In this document: positions 43,111 to 52,520 of the stretch, piece by piece | How positions within the stretch are numbered: position 1 is the stretch's first letter | How the letters are laid out: each line of letters begins with the position of its first letter | From: Limisphaerales bacterium | Lineage (GTDB): Bacteria > Verrucomicrobiota > Verrucomicrobiia > Limisphaerales > UBA1100 | Length of the DNA: 64,000 nucleotides | Assembly (NCBI GenBank): GCA_014382585.1 | Contig: JACNJL010000043.1 | Location: forward strand, 54,429-118,428 | Reading direction: 5' to 3' | Program-made: the position numbers and the translations under genes | The notes under the pieces: generated by a model | Databases searched by the model: none | The model's input: only the letters and a program-made list of their open reading frames with translations | Told to the model about the DNA's origin: nothing

Positions 43111-43854
43111 TCAGCCGCCCGGCTGGAGGACTGCGCTGGCGGGGAGCCAGCCCTGGCGGCCGGTGGGATCCTGAGCAAGAATCCATTTCGCGCCGTTCGC
43201 GTCATGGGTGTTCCGTACGCGCAGCTCAGCGCCGTCGAACCATTTGAATTGTTCCGGTGAAGCCTCCACTGGCCCGTAACGCACGGAAACTTGATCTTGC
43301 ACGACCACCGCCCACGGTTGGGCCGCCTTAATCCGCCAACTTACAATCGCCAGCGCCGCCAATACCAACGCTGCCGCGCCGAGCACAGGCCGCACCACTG
43401 CGCCGCGTTTGCGCCATTGCGGGCGCCAGTTGATCGCCGCCAGCCACAGCCACCAGATCGTGAGCAATGCCGATGACGTGAGGGTCCATTCGTTCAGGGT
43501 GAAATAGCCGGTCAGCCGTCGCCAGAAACCGGCCTTGGGCGGGGTGCCGTTGTGGACTTCATCCTGCACTCGTTTGAGGTTGGATTGCGCGCCGGTATCG
43601 CGCGGGTTCAATGTGAGTGCGCGCCGATAATGGAAAATCGCGCGGCCCAATTCCTTCGCCTCGTACGACGCGTGGGCGAGGTTGAAATGCAATGCAGTGG
43701 AGGTGCGGCCTGTTTTCAGTTGCGATTGATAATGGGTGATGGCCGCCGGAAAGTCCCCCGCTTCAAATGCGGCATTACCTTTTGAAAAATCAGAATCGTT
43801 TTCACCCGCGTGGAGCGTTACCGCGAGCATCGGTAAGAGCAGTAGGATTTTCAT
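43111..43854 (-). CDS. batE: BatE-like TPR protein
   Basis: A 247-residue protein: signal peptide or anchor (1-16), TPR repeats (about 22-98, KGNAAFEAGDFPAAITHYQ; ALHFNLAHASYEAKELGRA; HYRRALTLNPRD), two membrane helices (about 122-141 and 157-175) and a C-terminal bacterial SH3-like domain (DQVSVRYGPVEASPEQFKWF ... GRQGWLPASAV). This is the BatE layout. It is the last gene of the Bat operon, overlapping batD by four bases (ATGA). Bat proteins act at the membrane in aerotolerance or envelope stress in other bacteria; their biochemical role is unclear. Confidence 0.82.
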   Translation of the reverse strand: MKILLLLPMLAVTLHAGENDSDFSKGNAAFEAGDFPAAITHYQSQLKTGRTSTALHFNLAHASYEAKELGRAIFHYRRALTLNPRDTGAQSNLKRVQDEVHNGTPPKAGFWRRLTGYFTLNEWTLTSSALLTIWWLWLAAINWRPQWRKRGAVVRPVLGAAALVLAALAIVSWRIKAAQPWAVVVQDQVSVRYGPVEASPEQFKWFDGAELRVRNTHDANGAKWILAQDPTGRQGWLPASAVLQPGG

Positions 43855-45560
43855 CGCAGGGAATGGATGACCCGCTCCAAATCTTTTAAGAGCAGCGGTG
43901 CTTTTACCGTCTCCGGCGGGTTGGCGGAGCCGGTGAAACGGGCGAGTTGATTGTGTTCATGCAAACGCTCCAGCGCCGTACGGTTTTCGCCGGAAAGCGG
44001 CAGCGTCTCGTCCTCAAGAATTTCACGGCCAATGCCTTCCGCCGGTCGGCCCATTGCCATCCCAAGGTGCTCACGCAAGATGAGTTGTACGCCCGCGTGG
44101 AAGGCTTCGGGGTCGGCTTGCGTTTCGGTTTGCCGCAGTGAGCGTAGTGTTTCGCGTGTTACTTTTTGAACGTGGATGCGGCGCACCACATCGGGATGTT
44201 GTTCCAAATAAGTTTGCCGCCGTCGCCAGCCCATCAACATCACCCAAGCTAATAACGGGGCAGATTGTGCGATCAGAAACCATGGGTGTGTTAGCAACGG
44301 GGTGGGGGCCGTGGCGAGTAATCCGGGGGTGCGCCGTAGCGGTTCCATTTTGCCGGCATCAGCTTGGGGATCAGTTTGCGATTGAGGTAACGTGGGCGGA
44401 TCACCGGCTGCCGTCTGGATTGCCGGCCCCGTGACGCGCAGAGGGAAGGGGCCCGCGGTGTGCGTGATGTATTGTTTTGTTCCGGTATCAAAATACACAA
44501 ATTCAATCTGGGGAATCTCAGTGATGTCCGGACGTAACGGAACAACGGTGCGCGTAAAGGTTTTGAATGCGTGCAGATGGCGGAGGTCCAAATGCTTGAC
44601 GGTGCTGGTGGCGGGGTAGACTTTTAATCCGTCCCATTGGTCCGGTCCGGGCACGGTGATTTGATCCAGCGCGGCGCGTCCGGAAAGTTCGATCGAAAGT
44701 TCCAGGGGGTCGCCGGTTTTCACGGCGGCATGGCTGGCCTTCACCTTGAATTGCAGGTTGCTGCCCACCGCGCCGGAGAAGTTTTCCGGCCGTCCCTCGG
44801 CAGGCACGGGCATAACTTCCATCGCGATGGGATTACTTGCCACGTGGATCTGTTTGCGTTTGCCAAAAAAATCATCCGAGTCCCGCACCGTCACATCAAT
44901 TTCAAACACCATATTTCGGCGGCCCACCTTGGTGGCTACTGCGCCGGTTTTAAACAGGAATACATGATAGCGTGATCCGTTTTCCAGTCGGAGGGTGTGA
45001 GAAAACTCCGGCCGCTTGCGCGTGAACCGGAACCCCGGCGTGGTGAGTTGTGGTACGGGCAAATCGCCCGGCAACAGCCGTTCCACAAACAATTCCATGG
45101 TCACCGGAAACGCCTGGCCAAGGTAAACTTGAGATCGGTCAAGCTGCACTTTAATAAAGGCAGCGCGGTTTTGGTTGGCAACTGAACTGCTGCCGTCACG
45201 ATCCAGTACCGTGAGCGCAAGCGGTTCGCTGCGAAGCATTGTCCCGTTGGGAAGTTTGGCGGTGAAGGCCGGGACAATATGCCTCCCGGCTTTGCTGGTG
45301 GTAACAAGATAGGTAAAGGTGACGGATAATTTGTCCGAGCCGTTTAACGTGGAACGGTTCACTTCGCGTCCGCGAAATGAAAACCCCATGCCCGCTGGAG
45401 TGCGTTCGGGATGAACTGTGGCCAGCTCATATCCATCGCACCGCACCGTGAGCACGGCGCTTCCAGTTTGTTGAATGGCGCCGGGGTTGAGGGTGGAGGT
45501 GAGCACCGCGGCGGAGGCGGCGTTTCCGAGGCAAACTAATATTAAGAATAGGCCGCGCAT
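43851..45560 (-). CDS. batD: BatD-like protein
   Basis: A 569-residue protein: signal peptide (MRGLFLILVCLGNAASAAVL), an extended periplasmic region of Ig-like beta domains typical of BatD (for example AVLTVRCDGYELATVHPER, KVKASHAAVKTGDPLELSIE, RTVVPLRPDITEIPQIEF, FVYFDTGTKQY), one membrane helix near 425-442 (PWFLIAQSAPLLAWVMLMGW) and a cytoplasmic helical tail. The order batA-batB/C-batD-batE supports the assignment. The start overlaps the stop of the fusion gene (TAATG). Confidence 0.85.
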   Translation of the reverse strand: MRGLFLILVCLGNAASAAVLTSTLNPGAIQQTGSAVLTVRCDGYELATVHPERTPAGMGFSFRGREVNRSTLNGSDKLSVTFTYLVTTSKAGRHIVPAFTAKLPNGTMLRSEPLALTVLDRDGSSSVANQNRAAFIKVQLDRSQVYLGQAFPVTMELFVERLLPGDLPVPQLTTPGFRFTRKRPEFSHTLRLENGSRYHVFLFKTGAVATKVGRRNMVFEIDVTVRDSDDFFGKRKQIHVASNPIAMEVMPVPAEGRPENFSGAVGSNLQFKVKASHAAVKTGDPLELSIELSGRAALDQITVPGPDQWDGLKVYPATSTVKHLDLRHLHAFKTFTRTVVPLRPDITEIPQIEFVYFDTGTKQYITHTAGPFPLRVTGPAIQTAAGDPPTLPQSQTDPQADAGKMEPLRRTPGLLATAPTPLLTHPWFLIAQSAPLLAWVMLMGWRRRQTYLEQHPDVVRRIHVQKVTRETLRSLRQTETQADPEAFHAGVQLILREHLGMAMGRPAEGIGREILEDETLPLSGENRTALERLHEHNQLARFTGSANPPETVKAPLLLKDLERVIHSLR

Positions 45561-48334
45561 TACCAGTTCTTGCGAAGGCGTCGGGGTGGCTTGGGCATTC
45601 GGCCCAGTTCACCTACGCCGAGGGGTTTTTCGTCGCCCTTCATGGCCTCGAGCATTTCTTTGATTTGACGTAGCGTCTCCTGCAATTCGAATGGCACTTC
45701 GCTTTCTTTTTGCTCTTCGGGTTTACCGCCTTCACCGGGTTGTTCTTGCGGCTCGCCTTCGCCTTGGCCCTCAGGATTTTCATTCGGTTCACCTTCACCC
45801 TCGCCTTCGGAATTTTCCTGTGGTTCGCCCTCACCGCCTTCACCCTCACCCTGGCCTTCCTCCGGCGGGGTGGGGTCCACGCGGATCCAATGCGTGCCAT
45901 TAAAAATTTCCGCCCACGCGTGGGCTTCGCTTTGTTTGCTCACCCAACACTTTTCTTTTTTATCCCACTTGCCGCCGTGGAAGCCGCACGCGATGCGGGC
46001 CGGATATCCCGCCGCGCGTGCCAGTAATACGTGGCTGTACGCAAAATATTCGCAATGCCCATCCTCGCGGCTAAAGAGCCAGCGCACGACGGGATCTTTG
46101 TCAGCGTTTTTGGGGATACGCGTCTCGCGGGTGTACTTGTGATTTTTGTGGAGAAACTCAATCACGCGTTCATTAAACGTTTCAAAGTCGATGGGCTCGT
46201 TATTGGCCAGCCGTTCAACGGCTTGGTGAAGTTGATGGCGTTCGGAATCTTTGAGGCGCAGTTGACGGGTGGTGTGCGGATATTCGTTCGGGGAATTCAC
46301 GGCGACAGTATTAAGCGCCGCATCTGCGGGGCCGGGTGCGAGCACGCTGCATTCCGCCGGATCGGTCACACGATACGCGACCGCCGCGCTGGGCACTTCC
46401 GGCAGGCGACCCTGCAAGGCTTCTTTATTATAGTGCCATTGTTTCACCTTCGCCTCGCCTGTGGCAAATGGCCCCGGGATGGGCAGGAATTCGCTGAACA
46501 ACGGCTCGAACTTGAAGCGCCATTCACCGGGCAAAATTGGCCCCGCTGGCGCGCGCCCGCCGTGGGCACTCTCCCACGGGCCGGTGCGGCGGGAGGAAAG
46601 TTTCCGTAACGAATCAGACACCACTGCCACGCCGTCTTGGTAATCATCCAACGCAAACATTCGCCAATACGCATCTTCCGGAATGGCGTCCTCGCTGGGC
46701 GGATAAACGCGTAGCGCGATTTCGTCTTTTTGTTTAAAGCGATTAACCCCATCGAGCGGCAGTTCGTCGGTGAGTTGTTCCATCCGGCGTTTTTCTTCGG
46801 CAATTTTTTGGCGCACGAAGGCGAGGTTTTGTCGCGCGGATTTGTCGCCGGCATTCAATCCCACGGCCGCTTCGTAGTGGCGTGCGGATTCCTCCCAAAT
46901 CTGAATTCGCTCTTTCGGTTTTTCCTGAGAACTGCCGAGCCGAAAGTGGGTGTTGCCGAGGTTATAAAATGCCCGCTGTTGCAGTGAGAGATCCGGCGTG
47001 CGCAATGCAGACTGAAAATGCCGCTCGGCGTCGCCAAATTTTTCCGCTTGAAACGCCGCCGCTCCGGCATTGAACAGCAGCACCGGATCACCCGGACGCA
47101 GCGTTAATAATTTTTCGTATTCCGCCTGTGCCTCCGCAAAATTACCACCGGCGTATTCACTGTGCGCTTTTTTCAGGCTCGGCTTATCCGCGGCCATCGC
47201 GCCGAATGGCAAAATGAAAAACAACAGTATCGCCGTCGTGCTCGCTGTGTTGGAGGAAGCGGGCCGGCGACCTTTCGGCCACAGCAATTCCACCAACAAC
47301 AGCAGCACGCCCGCGCCGAGGAACCATTGGAATTGTTCTTTTTGGCGTCGCACCGTGGTCGGATTATGCTCTGATTTGGGCAGCGGCGCGAGCCCGTTTT
47401 TGTATAGCCAATCCATCGAGCCGGCGCCGGTGTGGCGCAGGTAAAATCCCCCAGTTTCCGTAGCTAATTCCTGTAACATCGGCTCATTTAATTTGCTACG
47501 GACCAGCCGCCCATCGTCTTTCAAATACTCCCGCGTGGTCGACCAGTCGGCCAAATAAGCATCGCACTCCCGGCAGCGATTGCGTTCGGGCACGTTGGGT
47601 TCATCGCAGCTCGGGCAAGTGAGCACCGGCACCAATTCGCCTTCGGGCGTGCCCATTCCTACGGTGAAAATTTTCATCCCTTGCGCGCCCGCCAATTTTG
47701 CCGCCGCCACCGCATCGGGTTCGTGCTCTTCGCCGTCGGTAAAAATCACCAGCACTTTGTGGCGATCCATTTCCTCTTCACCAAACATTTCCAGCGCGGT
47801 GTTGATGGCCGCAGCAATGCTCGTGCCGCCGTGGGGAATGACGTCCACTTGCACCAAATCCACGTGCTGCCGCAGTGCCTCGTGGTCGACCGTTAACGGG
47901 CATTGCAAAAACGCCACCCCGGCAAATGGAATGAGCGCGAAGCGATCTCCCTCACCGAGCTTTAGTAAATCGACGGCGGCGAGTTTGGCGCGCGACATCC
48001 GCGAGGGCACGAGATCGTTGGCCAACATACTGCGCGAAGTATCGATGGCGATCACCACGTCGAGACTTGTGGCGCGACTTTCGAATTCACGAAATCCCCA
48101 GCGCGGCCCGGCCAGCGTGGCAATGAGGCAACCCATCGCCGCGAGCAGTGCCACTGCGCGCAGCCATTGGCCTTTCGCGGACAAACTGCCCGCCAATTCC
48201 TCCACCCGATGCGGGCTCACAAAAAGCCCCAGCAAACGCCGCCGCCGCGCCCACGCAAAGGCAAAGCCACCGAGCAATGGCGGCAGCAGAATGAGCAGCC
48301 ACAATCGATCGGGGTCGGTCCAAGTCATGTTCAT
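45560..48334 (-). CDS. BatB-BatC-transglutaminase fusion protein (924 aa)
   Basis: Read in order: two N-terminal membrane helices (about 12-28, 58-76); a BatB-type vWA domain (about 90-300) with an intact MIDAS D98-T-S100-R-S102 and FTDGEEHEPDA; inside its end a four-Cys zinc-ribbon-like unit (C240-PS-C243 and C254-RE-C257); a helix at 335-352; then a stretch at 364-381 that looks like a signal peptide ending AMA-A; BatC-like TPRs (about 385-520); a TgpA-like soluble region beginning AYWRMFALDDY (555-565) leading to a transglutaminase core with the triad C761 (EDGHCEYFA), H805 (SEAHAWAEI) and D820 (RVDPTPP); a Gly/Glu/Pro acidic repeat (about 825-872); and a basic C-terminus. I infer fusion of three usually separate proteins. 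It is continuous with no frame break. Substrate unknown; protease, cross-linking or scaffold are possible. Confidence 0.85.
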   Translation of the reverse strand: MNMTWTDPDRLWLLILLPPLLGGFAFAWARRRRLLGLFVSPHRVEELAGSLSAKGQWLRAVALLAAMGCLIATLAGPRWGFREFESRATSLDVVIAIDTSRSMLANDLVPSRMSRAKLAAVDLLKLGEGDRFALIPFAGVAFLQCPLTVDHEALRQHVDLVQVDVIPHGGTSIAAAINTALEMFGEEEMDRHKVLVIFTDGEEHEPDAVAAAKLAGAQGMKIFTVGMGTPEGELVPVLTCPSCDEPNVPERNRCRECDAYLADWSTTREYLKDDGRLVRSKLNEPMLQELATETGGFYLRHTGAGSMDWLYKNGLAPLPKSEHNPTTVRRQKEQFQWFLGAGVLLLLVELLWPKGRRPASSNTASTTAILLFFILPFGAMAADKPSLKKAHSEYAGGNFAEAQAEYEKLLTLRPGDPVLLFNAGAAAFQAEKFGDAERHFQSALRTPDLSLQQRAFYNLGNTHFRLGSSQEKPKERIQIWEESARHYEAAVGLNAGDKSARQNLAFVRQKIAEEKRRMEQLTDELPLDGVNRFKQKDEIALRVYPPSEDAIPEDAYWRMFALDDYQDGVAVVSDSLRKLSSRRTGPWESAHGGRAPAGPILPGEWRFKFEPLFSEFLPIPGPFATGEAKVKQWHYNKEALQGRLPEVPSAAVAYRVTDPAECSVLAPGPADAALNTVAVNSPNEYPHTTRQLRLKDSERHQLHQAVERLANNEPIDFETFNERVIEFLHKNHKYTRETRIPKNADKDPVVRWLFSREDGHCEYFAYSHVLLARAAGYPARIACGFHGGKWDKKEKCWVSKQSEAHAWAEIFNGTHWIRVDPTPPEEGQGEGEGGEGEPQENSEGEGEGEPNENPEGQGEGEPQEQPGEGGKPEEQKESEVPFELQETLRQIKEMLEAMKGDEKPLGVGELGRMPKPPRRLRKNW

Positions 48335-48338
48335 GGTG

Positions 48339-49355
48339 TTAGGGTAATTTGCGCAGCCATGTTTGGCTAAGGATGAGTTCGAGGATCAAGAGCACCAGCC
48401 CCGCGCCCACGAACCAGCCGAACAAATCGTGGTAGCGCAGGAAGCGTTGCTCCTCGCGATCGGTTTTTTCCAGTTGATCAATCTCGTGATACACCGCGCG
48501 CAGTGCCTCGGTGCTTTCGGCGTAAAAAAACTTGCCGCCCGTGCGCGTGGCGATGTCGCGCAGGCGATCCTTATTGATGCCCACCAACTGATGATGACGC
48601 GGTAACCCAAACTGATCGCGCAACACCAGCTCCGTGCCTTCTTTGCCGATGCCGATGGTGTAAATTTTGATGCCCATCACCGCCGCCGCTTCGGCGGCTT
48701 CCTCGGGCTCCACCTTGCCGGTGTTGTTTTCTCCATCGGTCATCAAAATAATAATTTTGCTTTTGGAATCCTTAATGCCGCGCAGCCGGTTGACCGCCGC
48801 CGTGATGCCCGAACCAATCGCAGTGCCCTCGTCGTCGTTCTGCGGCGAAGCGGTGTCATTGTCAAAACGGTCAATATTCTCCAATAAATAATCGTGGTTC
48901 AAGGTTGGCGGACTGGCAATGAAGGCCAACCCGGAAAACACAATTAACCCAATCCGATCACTGGGCCGGCCCTCCACAAATTCTTTGAGCACTTGTTTTG
49001 AAATATCCAATCGCGTGACATTGCGGCCTTGGTTGCGAAAATCTTTTGCCTCCATGCTGTCGGACAAATCCAGCGTGAGCATAATATCAATTCCGCTGGC
49101 CTTGATGCGTTCGCGGCCTTCGCCCCATTGCGGGCGCGCAAGCCCGAGGATGCAAGCGGTGAGCGCCAGCCAGCGCAGTGCTGCCACCAGTCGACCTGCG
49201 CGATGCGGCGCGATGTGCGAGAATCGTTTCACCAACTTCAGTGACGAAAACACCACCGCCGGAGGCGCACCTGATGCCCCCTGCAACCACCCCGCCAGCG
49301 GGAGGAGCAGCAGCAACCCCAGCCACGCGGGATCTTCGAAGGTGAAATTGTTCAT
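48339..49355 (-). CDS. batA: BatA-like vWA membrane protein
   Basis: A 338-residue protein: two N-terminal membrane helices (about 12-30 and 58-76), a vWA domain with MIDAS LTLDLSDSM, IGLIVFSGLAFIASPPTLNH and IILMTDGENNTG, and a C-terminal helix (about 312-330). The layout matches BatA. It sits directly upstream of the BatB-containing fusion (4-base gap) and overlaps the DUF4381 gene by ATGA. Confidence 0.88.
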   Translation of the reverse strand: MNNFTFEDPAWLGLLLLLPLAGWLQGASGAPPAVVFSSLKLVKRFSHIAPHRAGRLVAALRWLALTACILGLARPQWGEGRERIKASGIDIMLTLDLSDSMEAKDFRNQGRNVTRLDISKQVLKEFVEGRPSDRIGLIVFSGLAFIASPPTLNHDYLLENIDRFDNDTASPQNDDEGTAIGSGITAAVNRLRGIKDSKSKIIILMTDGENNTGKVEPEEAAEAAAVMGIKIYTIGIGKEGTELVLRDQFGLPRHHQLVGINKDRLRDIATRTGGKFFYAESTEALRAVYHEIDQLEKTDREEQRFLRYHDLFGWFVGAGLVLLILELILSQTWLRKLP

Positions 49356-49894
49356 CGTGTTAATTGTGGTGGCGACACGCGCGGGGGCAGTGCGCCCGGC
49401 AGCGGCGGCGCGGTTTCTTTGACCAACTGCACTGCCATCGCGTGCAGTCGGCGGCAGTCTTCTTCAGTTGGCTCGTGCCGCGCGAATTTTGAGAGATCAC
49501 AAAATTCCAGAAATTGCCCGAGCAAATCTTTTTGGGGTGGCGTCATTTGCGGGGCGCGATGGAGTTCATCCAAAAATTCTTCCGTCGTGCGCTCCGGCGC
49601 GTGGAATTCAAACCGTTCCCCGAGGTACATCCGCAAAATATCCGCCACCGCCCGCGCAAACAAAACCGGTGAAGGCAACAATCCCCAAACCTCGCGCAAC
49701 TTCCGCAACGCCTCCGCATCCGGCGCGGGTAACACCGGCGCGCGCTTCGGCTCGCGCAACGCCCAAAATAACAGCACTGCTCCCGCTACAAACACCGCCA
49801 GTAAAACCCAAAGCGCCCAGTTCGAGCCCTCGCCCGTTTCCAAAACCAGCGGCGGTTTGATTTCCAGAATGTCAGTGAGATTCGTGTTGTTCAT
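49352..49894 (-). CDS. DUF4381-like membrane protein of the Bat operon
   Basis: A 180-residue protein with one membrane helix (about 27-46, WALWVLLAVFVAGAVLLFWA) and a cytoplasmic helical domain (ADAEALRKLREVWGLLPSPV-like, then RMYLGERFEFHAPERTTEEF and SKFARHEPTEEDCRRL). The R-T-T-E-E-F-L and K-F-A motifs are typical of DUF4381, a family between DUF58 and batA in MoxR/Bat operons. I start at the ATG at 49894 because GGGAG lies five bases upstream; an ATG at 49921 has no such site. Confidence 0.78.
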   Translation of the reverse strand: MNNTNLTDILEIKPPLVLETGEGSNWALWVLLAVFVAGAVLLFWALREPKRAPVLPAPDAEALRKLREVWGLLPSPVLFARAVADILRMYLGERFEFHAPERTTEEFLDELHRAPQMTPPQKDLLGQFLEFCDLSKFARHEPTEEDCRRLHAMAVQLVKETAPPLPGALPPRVSPPQLTR

Positions 49895-50324
49895 CCGGCT
49901 CCCGCTGGAAAGGTAACTCATGAAAGAGTGGGACAGAAGTTAGAAGTTGGAAGACAGGAGGCAGAATGCAATATGTAGCCTGGGCCGGTGGCCCGGGAGA
50001 TTGAACCGCCAAGGCGCAAAGACGCCAAGGGGGGAATGAGCAATGACCAAAACCCAAGAACCAAGGAATGACAAATCACCAAGCCCCAAATTGGTTTTGT
50101 GAATTGGGGTTTCCTTGGGATTTGGGCCTTGGTCATTCCCCGGTAGGGACACGCCTCGCGCGTCCGTGGACACGTGAAGCGCGTCCCTGCCGTCGGCGTG
50201 TTTTGGGGACGGGCAAGTTCCCCCTTGCCCCAAATTGATTTTGTTGGGTGATAATAGGGACGAGGTGGAACTCATCCCTCCCGTCGCACTGCGGCGGTTT
50301 CGGAGAAACCGCCTTGCCCGCAAC
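49895..50324. other. Long non-coding gap inside the Bat operon
   Basis: About 430 bases with no credible gene. It contains intergenic repeat units: a 22-base unit at 49976-49997 (TAGCC...CCCGGG type), an AACCGCCAAGGCGCAAAGAC stretch beginning at 50004 of a kind scattered in many bacterial genomes, a 96-base inverted repeat (50042-50137), and two copies of a GGGAC...GCGTCC inverted unit (50142-50186). It separates DUF58 from the rest of the bat genes on the same strand. I see no convincing promoter or terminator. Confidence 0.7.
50042..50137. repeat. 96-base imperfect inverted repeat (hairpin element)
   Basis: The ends are AATGACCAA (50042) and TTGGTCATT (50129-50137), followed inward by CCCAA / TTGGG and CCAAGG / CCTTGG pairs and an inner CCCCAA / TTGGGG helix. 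It can fold into one long interrupted hairpin. Size and form resemble a REP- or MITE-like intergenic element; no terminal target duplication could be verified by eye. Confidence 0.6.
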
Positions 50325-51227
50325 CTACCTTCGGCGTTCCAATCGGGTGCGGAAGAAGTGCGATAGCGCGGGGGCGTAGGGCTCGCCGGTGACGAGGCGG
50401 ATGTGGTCGATGTTTAGGGCACCGAATTCTTTGACCAATGCGGCTTGGTCTTCGGCGCGGTGGGCGGCGAAGGCAGTGCGATCGGCTTCGGTTCGGAGGT
50501 GCAGTTCGCCGACTTCGCCGGTCTCGGCATCTTCGAGCACCAAGCGGCCGAGCGGGGGCAGGGCGTCTTCGTGCGGGTCGTTGATTTGGATGGCCACCAC
50601 GTCGTGCCGGCGTTGGGCGCGGCGCAGGGCGGAGTGGGGGAGGGGATCGAGGAAATCAGAAATCACAATCATCACCGCGCGGCGGCGGAAGGTCTTTTGC
50701 AAATGCTGGAGGGCGGAGCGCAGATCGCCGGTGCGATGGACGGGGGTGTGATGCAAAATATCGCGCACGACGCGCAGCACGTGGCGTTTGCTTTTTCCCG
50801 GTCGCACATACTTTTCCACGTGATCGGAAAACAATGTGAGGCCGACTTTATCGTTGTTGCGCTGGGCGGCGAAGGCGAGCGCGGCGGCTACTTCGGCGGC
50901 GAGTTCCTGTTTGGTTTGCTCGCCACTGCCGAACCGCCCCGACGCGCTGATGTCCACCAGCAACATCACCGTCAGCTCGCGTTCCTCCACGAATTGTTTC
51001 ACAAACGGCTGGTTCAATCGCGCCGTGACGTTCCAATCGATATTGCGCACCTCATCGCCGGGCTGATACTCGCGCACCTCATCAAAATCCATTCCCTGCC
51101 CGCGAAACACACTGCGGTATTGGCCGACCATCACATCGCTTACCAGCCGCTTAGTGCGGATTTCAATTTGGCGAACTTTTGAAGGGTTCAAAAGGCGGTT
51201 GAGGGTTGAGGGTTGTGGGGAAACCAA
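50325..51227 (-). CDS. DUF58 protein (vWA-like, MoxR-associated)
   Basis: A protein of 289-300 residues. The core blocks are RTKRLVSDVMVGQYRSVFRG, FDEVREYQPGDEVRNIDWNV and the vWA-like LLVDISASGRFGSGEQTK with a partial MIDAS (DISAS), followed by VIVISDFLDPLP. DUF58 proteins pair with MoxR AAA+ ATPases and, often, transglutaminases. Possible starts are TTG codons at 51227 and 51191. The first lies in CCCTCAACCC-type repeat DNA, so the true protein may be 12 residues shorter. Neither has a Shine-Dalgarno. Confidence 0.87.
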   Translation of the reverse strand: MVSPQPSTLNRLLNPSKVRQIEIRTKRLVSDVMVGQYRSVFRGQGMDFDEVREYQPGDEVRNIDWNVTARLNQPFVKQFVEERELTVMLLVDISASGRFGSGEQTKQELAAEVAAALAFAAQRNNDKVGLTLFSDHVEKYVRPGKSKRHVLRVVRDILHHTPVHRTGDLRSALQHLQKTFRRRAVMIVISDFLDPLPHSALRRAQRRHDVVAIQINDPHEDALPPLGRLVLEDAETGEVGELHLRTEADRTAFAAHRAEDQAALVKEFGALNIDHIRLVTGEPYAPALSHFFRTRLERRR

Positions 51228-51259: not shown

Positions 51260-52252
51260 CTACGGCACCGGCATGTGATCCAGGAACAACGCCAGCACAT
51301 GGTCGCTGGTTTTATCTTCGGCCTCGGCTTCGTAGCTTATTTGAATGCGATGACGCATCACGTCCGGCGCGATGGCCTTCACGTCTTGTGGCGTCACGTA
51401 GCCGCGCCCTTGCAGGAATGCGTGGGCCTTGGAGGCGAGCGTGAGGTAAATGGTGGCACGCGGCGAGGCGCCCAATTGGATGAGCCCCTGCGCGGGTACA
51501 TTGAAAATCCCCGGATCCCGCGTCGCGCACACGAGGTTCACGATGTACTCCTTCACCTTGTCATCCACATAAATCGTATCCACAACCTTGCGCGCCGTGA
51601 GCACCTGCTCCACCGTCACCACCTGTTGGGCCACGGGCGTGCCTTCCGTCTTGGCCCAGTCCTCCAGAATTTGTCGCTCCTCCTTTTGGGTTGGATAATC
51701 CATCACCACCTTGAGCATAAAGCGATCCACCTGCGCCTCGGGCAATTGATACGTGCCCTCCTGTTCAATGGGATTTTCTGTCGCCATCACGAGAAACGGT
51801 TGTGGCAACGGATACGTTTGATCGCCGATGGTCACCTGTTTTTCCTGCATCGCTTCCAGCAACGCACTCTGTACCTTCGCCGGCGCGCGATTGATCTCAT
51901 CGGCCAACAACAAATTTGCAAACACCGGCCCCTGCCGCGTGGTAAATTCCCCCGACTGTGGATTGTAAATCTGCGTCCCCGTCACATCCGCCGGCAACAT
52001 ATCCGGCGTAAACTGAATGCGCGAAAAGTCCACATTCAACGCCTCCGATAACGTCTTAATTGCCAGTGTCTTGGCAATCCCCGGTACGCCTTCGAGCAGC
52101 ACGTGCCCATTGGCCAGCAAACTAATCACCAGCCGCTCCAGCAAATATTTTTGGCCGACAATCACCTTGCCCATCTCATCCATCAACGGCTGCACAAACG
52201 CCCCCGCCTCCGTCACCGCCGAATTATCGGCCTCAATTTCCGCGTGATTCAT
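51260..52252 (-). CDS. moxR: MoxR-family AAA+ ATPase
   Basis: First gene of the Bat operon. The 330-residue protein has Walker A GVPGIAKTLAIK, Walker B NLLLADEINRAPAKVQSALLEAM, the QVTIGDQTYPLP insert, sensor 1 FLVMATENPIEQEGTY, the QVDRFMLKV arginine finger region and sensor 2 GASPRAT. MoxR proteins are chaperone-like ATPases that act on vWA partners, here DUF58, BatA and the fusion protein. I start at the ATG at 52252 (MNHAEIEAD); the frame runs on upstream through low-complexity repeat DNA without coding character. Confidence 0.93.
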   Translation of the reverse strand: MNHAEIEADNSAVTEAGAFVQPLMDEMGKVIVGQKYLLERLVISLLANGHVLLEGVPGIAKTLAIKTLSEALNVDFSRIQFTPDMLPADVTGTQIYNPQSGEFTTRQGPVFANLLLADEINRAPAKVQSALLEAMQEKQVTIGDQTYPLPQPFLVMATENPIEQEGTYQLPEAQVDRFMLKVVMDYPTQKEERQILEDWAKTEGTPVAQQVVTVEQVLTARKVVDTIYVDDKVKEYIVNLVCATRDPGIFNVPAQGLIQLGASPRATIYLTLASKAHAFLQGRGYVTPQDVKAIAPDVMRHRIQISYEAEAEDKTSDHVLALFLDHMPVP

Positions 52253-52356
52253 ACGCGCGGAAGATAGGGGAAAAGGGGAGAGGGGGGAAGGATTTTGGGG
52301 TTTCGATTGATGAGGGGGGAGGGAGTGGGGAATGGGGAATGGGGATTTGGGAAATC

Positions 52357-52480
52357 TAGCCCGGGCTGGTGGCCTGGGGGTAGGGCTGGCTCTCCGAGCC
52401 GGCCGCGGCGCGCTGGGACAGCGCGCCCTACCTTTACCGGATTGTGGATCGCCCCGGTAGGGACGCGCTTTGCGCGTCCG
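52357..52480. repeat. Intergenic repeat cluster upstream of moxR
   Basis: A 22-base unit at 52357-52378 matches 19 of 22 positions of the unit at 49976-49997. At 52455-52480 a GGTAGGGACGCGC unit with inverted GGACGCGC-TTT-GCGCGTCC matches the copies at 50142-50186. Between them is an inverted pair around CGCGCTGGGACAGCGCG. Short G-rich direct repeats (GGGGAAT) fill 52262-52350. The region 52253-52520 holds no gene. Confidence 0.65.
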
Positions 52481-52520
52481 ACCCGGGCTCAACCCTCAAC
52501 CCCCCGGGCCCTCAACCCAC

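Follow-up and report, generated by a model that had tools for sequence, protein, structure and literature searches.

A predicted TgpA-type transglutaminase domain nested within a BatB-BatC fusion protein in one family of Limisphaerales

The analysed stretch of Limisphaerales bacterium contig JACNJL010000043.1 (assembly GCA_014382585.1, positions 54,429 to 118,428; 64,000 nucleotides, hereafter the window) carries on its minus strand a gene whose 924-residue product unites BatB, BatC and a TgpA-like transglutaminase in a single chain. This composition, put forward in the original prediction from the nucleotide sequence alone, agreed with both the Pfam domains and the position of the gene in its operon. 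The features of the gene are as follows.

45560..48334, minus strand: fused gene, BatB-BatC with inserted TgpA periplasmic domain; ATG start, 924 residues
47372..48070, minus strand: von Willebrand factor A (vWA) domain with metal ion-dependent adhesion site (MIDAS), residues 89-321
47564..47617, minus strand: zinc-ribbon-like insertion CPSC-x10-CREC within the vWA domain, residues 240-257 (invariant cysteines, alignment gap)
47192..47245, minus strand: internal hydrophobic helix, residues 364-381 (hydropathy; predicted fourth membrane segment or signal)
46784..47182, minus strand: BatC tetratricopeptide repeat (TPR) solenoid, residues 385-517 (Pfam TPR; high-confidence predicted helices)
45848..46783, minus strand: inserted TgpA periplasmic domain, residues 518-829
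45872..46171, minus strand: Transglut_core, residues 722-821, with C761, H805 and D820 (Pfam; alignment with 6g49)
45695..45847, minus strand: Gly/Glu-rich linker, residues 830-880 (predicted local distance difference test score <50 over 826-881)
45563..45694, minus strand: BatC C-terminal helix and K(N/D)W tail, residues 881-924

A Pfam scan of the protein placed VWA at residues 92-230, TPR at 390-445, bearing out the predicted repeats, and Transglut_core at 722-821 (64.5 bits vs. a cut-off of 23). TgpA_N aligned over profile positions 201-325 only (residues 520-657), with 29.8 bits vs. a cut-off of 30. The N-terminal multi-helix membrane domain of TgpA (TgpA_N 1-200) was unmatched, and no match was obtained to the C-terminal DUF4129, a TgpA feature that likewise went unmatched in all four Opitutae-type or same-class TgpAs scanned. 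The BatB part combines a vWA domain of BatB fold and a MIDAS with predicted membrane helices on both flanks and a gene position between BatA and BatD in a MoxR-DUF58 operon; the BatC part has TPRs behind a predicted export segment; and the TgpA part is a periplasmic domain with a transglutaminase core. The MIDAS had been called intact, and its five residues (D98, S100, S102, T171 and D200) were indeed invariant in all 31 aligned proteins, namely that of the window and the database proteins P0001-P0030. The Foldseek and VIA result lists consisted mostly of vWA-domain matches.

Rather than being appended to BatC, the transglutaminase lies between the TPRs and a tail that marks BatC, a K(D/N)W motif recognised in the present analysis and not taken from print. 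A K[DNK]W-type end was present in all 30 database fusions and in 77 of 77 plain BatB-BatC database relatives of at least 600 residues, and a low-complexity linker occupies the equivalent place in plain relatives. Because the BatC tail follows the module, an end-to-end fusion was rejected, and the alignments indicate that the transglutaminase is an insertion inside BatC. Thirteen plain relatives of 515-569 residues lacked the tail (P0044, P0048, P0053, P0071, P0082, P0083, P0089, P0092, P0096, P0107, P0111, P0115 and P0120); most look like a second subtype, and P0071 is called partial by its source.

The vWA-TPR-Transglut_core architecture, for which the original prediction had proposed a search, was shared by 30 further database proteins at 37%-87% identity (the best local alignment of P0030 spans only 56% of the query). 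When the module alone was used as a query, 27 of the best 120 of 689 matches carried VWA domains, all within P0001-P0029. One further match, P0121, was a partial protein with TPRs, module and tail; most of the remaining matches in this best 120 carried TgpA_N, and none of the rest had VWA. The known fusions P0027, P0028 and P0030 were missing from these best 120; therefore, a module-only search can miss diverged fusions. In a sample of 116 genomes from the order, where fusions were called by score and open frame, the fusion was confined to the window's family, where three of four members had it; the 112 other genomes had none. Across 288 genomes of the phylum, only the genome of the window scored as a fusion (507 bits vs. 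221 for the next), and a BatB-vWA profile found no such domain in the 16 frames of at least 900 residues outside that genome among the matches listed, which gave no sign of independent fusions elsewhere. Within the window's family, 16 of 20 genomes carried the fusion. Among the four without it, G362 has a complete operon with a plain BatB-BatC of 614 residues, and the other three (G405, G412 and G415) are 50%-61% complete. The recurrence in 30 further proteins and 16 of 20 family genomes therefore indicates that the fusion is the product of neither chance nor mis-assembly.

The vWA domain contains a second insertion, at residues 240-257, which the original prediction had missed. The four cysteines of its CPSC-x10-CREC loop were invariant in 31 of 31 aligned fusions; the first knuckle is CxxC, widened to CxxxxC in P0029 and P0030. 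The pattern was also found in all 15 fusion genomes having that part on a contig, and it was absent from the 90 plain database relatives, even when widened, and from all 28 plain order and family proteins; these two plain sets overlap by at least one protein. Pfam zinc-ribbon matches were weak and below the cut-offs (zf-ChsH2, E 0.039; DZR, E 0.087). The segment is a putative zinc ribbon, with four cysteines in two knuckles, although disulphides instead of zinc are possible in a periplasmic setting. Should the two insertions have arisen on a common stem, finding them together would count as a single event, and the conservation of the cysteines is stronger evidence than that co-occurrence.

Cys761, His805 and residue 820 aligned with the Cys, His and Asp of TgpA (6g49). 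His805 was kept in all 31 proteins and Cys761 in 29, with Ser in P0027 and P0028; among the fusion genomes, the cysteine was kept in 14 of 16. The ratio of nonsynonymous to synonymous substitutions (dN/dS; Nei-Gojobori method, leaving out G406, a relative of G404, as well as G410, G417 and G418) was 0.070-0.094 for the module in the six Cys-bearing pairs that gave one, synonymous sites being saturated in the pair G414/G411, and 0.192 in the pair G311/G409. The vWA domain showed 0.029-0.053 in the Cys-bearing pairs and 0.101 in G311/G409; the whole protein thus evolves faster in the genus of these two genomes.

The internal helix at 364-381 was considered in the original prediction to be a relic of the fusion, sitting where a separate BatC would begin. 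The helix itself was confirmed, as two hydrophobic 15-residue windows occurred within residues 290-430 in 30 of 30 fusions; however, two also occurred in 90 of 90 plain BatB-BatC proteins. Therefore, the helix is older than the transglutaminase, and its reading as a relic of the present fusion was rejected. The Ala-x-Ala end ascribed to it was not conserved (P0016, for example, has FPTEGA). The segment spanning transmembrane segments 3-4 had the highest dN/dS in five of the seven pairs with values for every segment, ranging from 0.10 to 0.95 over all pairs. Hydropathy windows near 9-30, 56-77 and 359-386 were found in each of the close relatives L011, L013 and L016.

The fused gene belongs to an operon read on the minus strand in the order MoxR, DUF58, DUF4381/DUF4129-like protein, BatA, fusion gene, BatD and BatE, the last four being overlapping or 4 bases apart. 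Its other members are listed below.

51260..52492, minus strand: MoxR AAA+ ATPase (AAA_3, 220.8 bits)
50325..51227, minus strand: DUF58 protein (259 bits)
49352..49921, minus strand: DUF4381/DUF4129-like protein (E 8.6e-5 and 0.0012, both under the curated cut-off)
48339..49355, minus strand: BatA (VWA and BatA_N)
43851..45560, minus strand: BatD (61 bits)
43111..43854, minus strand: BatE (TPR and weak SH3; Pfam)

A gap of 403 bases (49922-50324), with one doubtful open reading frame (ORF) of 127 residues inside, separates the DUF58 and DUF4381-like genes; it measures approximately 290 bases in L011 and 95 in L012 and is absent in several relatives. In two relatives (L011:8286-9017 and L012:12528-13263), BatE reads as two ORFs, as if through a frameshift, which may be real or a sequencing error. 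The genome of the window (3.70 Mb, 70 contigs, 95% complete) yielded no second MoxR-transglutaminase operon. Its sole other Transglut_core match was an apparently exported protein of 313 residues (L007:8108-9049), beside ORFs that read like selA/selB/selD; a second transglutaminase match on a frame of about this size was common in family genomes. Three other MoxR-DUF58 loci of this genome (L008, L009 and L010) had no transglutaminase among the eight downstream ORFs scanned; they lead into long proteins of the BatA_N/vWA type, behind which lie large ORFs that gave few Pfam matches or none.

The history of the fusion was examined with separate trees for its two halves. In the tree of the BatB half (inserted columns removed; 14 of the 16 fusions, G406 and G417 being cut, with 10 of the 90 plain database proteins), the fusions formed one side of a branch with a support of only 80, inside a set of 18 rows (support 100) that included G362 and three f69 proteins; L207 was a long branch. 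In the transglutaminase tree, built with random subsets of 12 of 30 Opitutae-type, 14 of 37 other, 14 of 29 class and 14 of 27 order loci, the fusions formed one clade (support 100) within a branch shared with 26 class/Opitutae TgpAs (support 99, and again 99 after five long-branch rows and a gappy one were dropped). The own order contributed 14 TgpA-like rows, which were placed elsewhere, as was the separate TgpA of G311. Profile scores pointed the same way: among class TgpAs, the best 29 scored 170-221 bits, in most cases along almost the entire model, and the others no more than 114 bits, whereas TgpAs of the own order did not exceed 71 bits and matched chiefly the core. These results suggest that a single insertion into a plain BatB-BatC gene likely occurred within the window's family and that the module most likely derived from a TgpA gene of the Opitutae type. 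With a p of 0.171, however, an approximately unbiased test did not reject a clade of the fusions and the TgpA of their own order; an Opitutae-type origin therefore falls short of proof. MoxR lay upstream of the Opitutae-type TgpA at 28 of 30 loci (L024-L053) and was not found on the stretch at L042 and L049. Because the module finds its nearest stand-alone relatives in TgpAs mostly neighbouring MoxR, and the operon of the window is otherwise a complete MoxR-DUF58-DUF4381-BatA-x-BatD-BatE operon, the claim that two operon layouts have been physically merged was upheld. The MoxR-TgpA locus L072 comes from a metagenome-assembled genome titled Klebsiella pneumoniae, a title that may be a mislabel.

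MoxR ATPases with vWA partners elsewhere are reported to remodel targets or insert metal (PMC9976466; PMC13036017), and the purified periplasmic region of TgpA is reported to be active in vitro (PMC3507681). These properties make a thiol acyltransferase or peptidase, attached to the Bat complex in the periplasm, the preferred reading. We give about an even chance to the proposal that the fusion protein is an inner-membrane-anchored periplasmic enzyme of this complex, whose predicted targets are envelope proteins or peptides delivered by the vWA and TPR parts. Hydropathy and positive-inside topology would place the vWA domain, TPRs and transglutaminase in the periplasm, and MoxR and DUF58 in the cytosol. 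The TPRs and the vWA MIDAS could hold a partner or substrate, while the MoxR ATPase cycle, relayed via DUF58 and the membrane helices, might gate access to it. A thioester would then form on Cys761, and transfer of its acyl group to an amine would create a cross-link, whereas transfer to water would amount to peptidase action. An added docking surface might be provided by the zinc-ribbon-like loop, and in genus g153 the domain may have persisted as a binding module after loss of the cysteine. On a broader scale, the merger suggests that Bat and TgpA likely act on the same envelope process. More tentatively, the Bat complex in general could be a scaffold for a TgpA-type enzyme whose periplasmic domain, where the operons are separate, docks beside the BatC TPRs; the present family would have hard-wired this contact by insertion at the docking point, with the zinc-ribbon loop steadying or regulating it.

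Several observations weigh against a catalytic role or a general Bat-TgpA link. The third residue of the proposed C761/H805/D820 core is less constant than the other two: of the 31 proteins, 21 have Asp at position 820 and the other 10 have Glu. Ser replaces the catalytic Cys in both G311 and G409, two genomes of genus g153, and G311 additionally encodes a Cys-bearing TgpA (L180; Transglut_core match, DUF4129 match just below the cut-off) in a separate MoxR-DUF58-TgpA operon, so that in this genome the fused protein can do without catalysis. Compensation by a separate TgpA fits G311 but not G409, in which none was seen at 90% completeness. As to whether the fusion takes the place of TgpA, no separate TgpA was seen in 15 of the 16 fusion genomes, G311 being the exception, although many of these genomes are incomplete. 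Additionally, among genomes that gave a transglutaminase-profile match, 54 of 59 had BatB-like matches, as did 45 of the 53 that gave none (order sample excluding the family, counted by hand; matches at E<=1e-8, not all confirmed TgpAs). Thus, the two systems often coexist as separate genes and their presence is not strictly linked. Finally, deleting bat in L. biflexa is reported to produce no phenotype in growth, morphology or oxidative stress (PMC3557215).

These points leave room for other explanations. The module might be kept as a binding or structural domain, with catalysis secondary everywhere and the Cys a leftover of the donor; the Ser-bearing modules of G311 and G409, still constrained at a dN/dS of 0.19, and the Asp/Glu alternation are consistent with this. 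However, the Cys in 14 of 16 genomes and 29 of 31 proteins, the universal His and the lower dN/dS of Cys-bearing modules (although the vWA domain shifts alike) make it rather unlikely. Alternatively, signal peptidase could cut after the internal helix, yielding BatB and a soluble BatC-transglutaminase, so that the joining would serve co-expression only. A-x-A-like ends follow the hydrophobic helix in the window and several relatives, but the small residue at -3 is not conserved (TEGA and SQGA in P0016 and P0010) and the helix segment evolves fast; we consider such cleavage improbable, and even then the transglutaminase would remain joined to the BatC TPRs and tail. Neutral domain shuffling, in which a chance insertion carries no functional Bat-TgpA link, could account for the single origin and for the near independence of Bat and transglutaminase matches in the order. 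It is difficult to reconcile with retention in 16 of 20 family genomes and with dN/dS well below 1 for both module and cysteine loop, given that a chance insert should decay among relatives only 40%-45% identical, and is therefore held to be very unlikely. Assembly error or a chimeric contig, which the original prediction had kept in view, draws on the fact that the named relatives are metagenome-assembled genomes; since identical boundaries recur in 30 database proteins and 16 genomes, it was ruled out for practical purposes.

To our knowledge, no function has been agreed for either Bat or TgpA. Direct hints that two such orphan systems meet are few, and a gene fusion is among them; the present one offers a direct test of a shared Bat-TgpA process. 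With a clearly delimited insertion point and a genus in which the Cys has been lost naturally, the link is testable by structure prediction of the complex and simple enzymology. Raised oxidative-stress sensitivity is noted for a batA mutant of R. anatipestifer, and tgpA is reported to be critical for P. aeruginosa viability (PMC11834572 and PMC3507681, respectively). A literature search whose scope excluded subscription papers and preprints found no paper treating BatB, transglutaminase and MoxR together, nor one joining aerotolerance and transglutaminase. The nested fusion itself was not found in print within the literature searched. The BatB-BatC fusion, also part of the original prediction, is present but already known: it is the rule among the plain relatives listed, and batB-batC are reported to be fused in L. 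biflexa (PMC3557215).

Plain BatB-BatC proteins (P0031-P0120) share with the present protein the vWA domain, the membrane helix after it, the internal hydrophobic helix, TPRs, the low-complexity linker and, in 77 of 90, the K(D/N)W tail, and that of G362 has the same MoxR-DUF58-DUF4381-BatA-BatD-BatE surroundings. They differ in having neither a TgpA domain between TPRs and linker nor a zinc-ribbon-like vWA loop. TgpA of P. aeruginosa (PA2873; 6g49/6g4h) and Opitutae-type TgpA share the complete periplasmic domain, the Cys-His-Asp core and MoxR neighbours, also DUF58 where scanned; unlike them, the fusion lacks the TgpA_N 1-200 membrane part and C-terminal DUF4129, and its domain hangs on BatC. 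The bifidobacterial PFNA operon also brings together genes for a MoxR-subfamily AAA-ATPase, DUF58 and a transglutaminase, but as separate genes and with no Bat proteins named in the portion of the source consulted (PMC12067865). MoxR-vWA ternary systems share MoxR and vWA and, rarely, a transglutaminase-like thiol peptidase, whereas their source describes them as conflict systems and names neither BatB nor DUF58 (PMC7159879).
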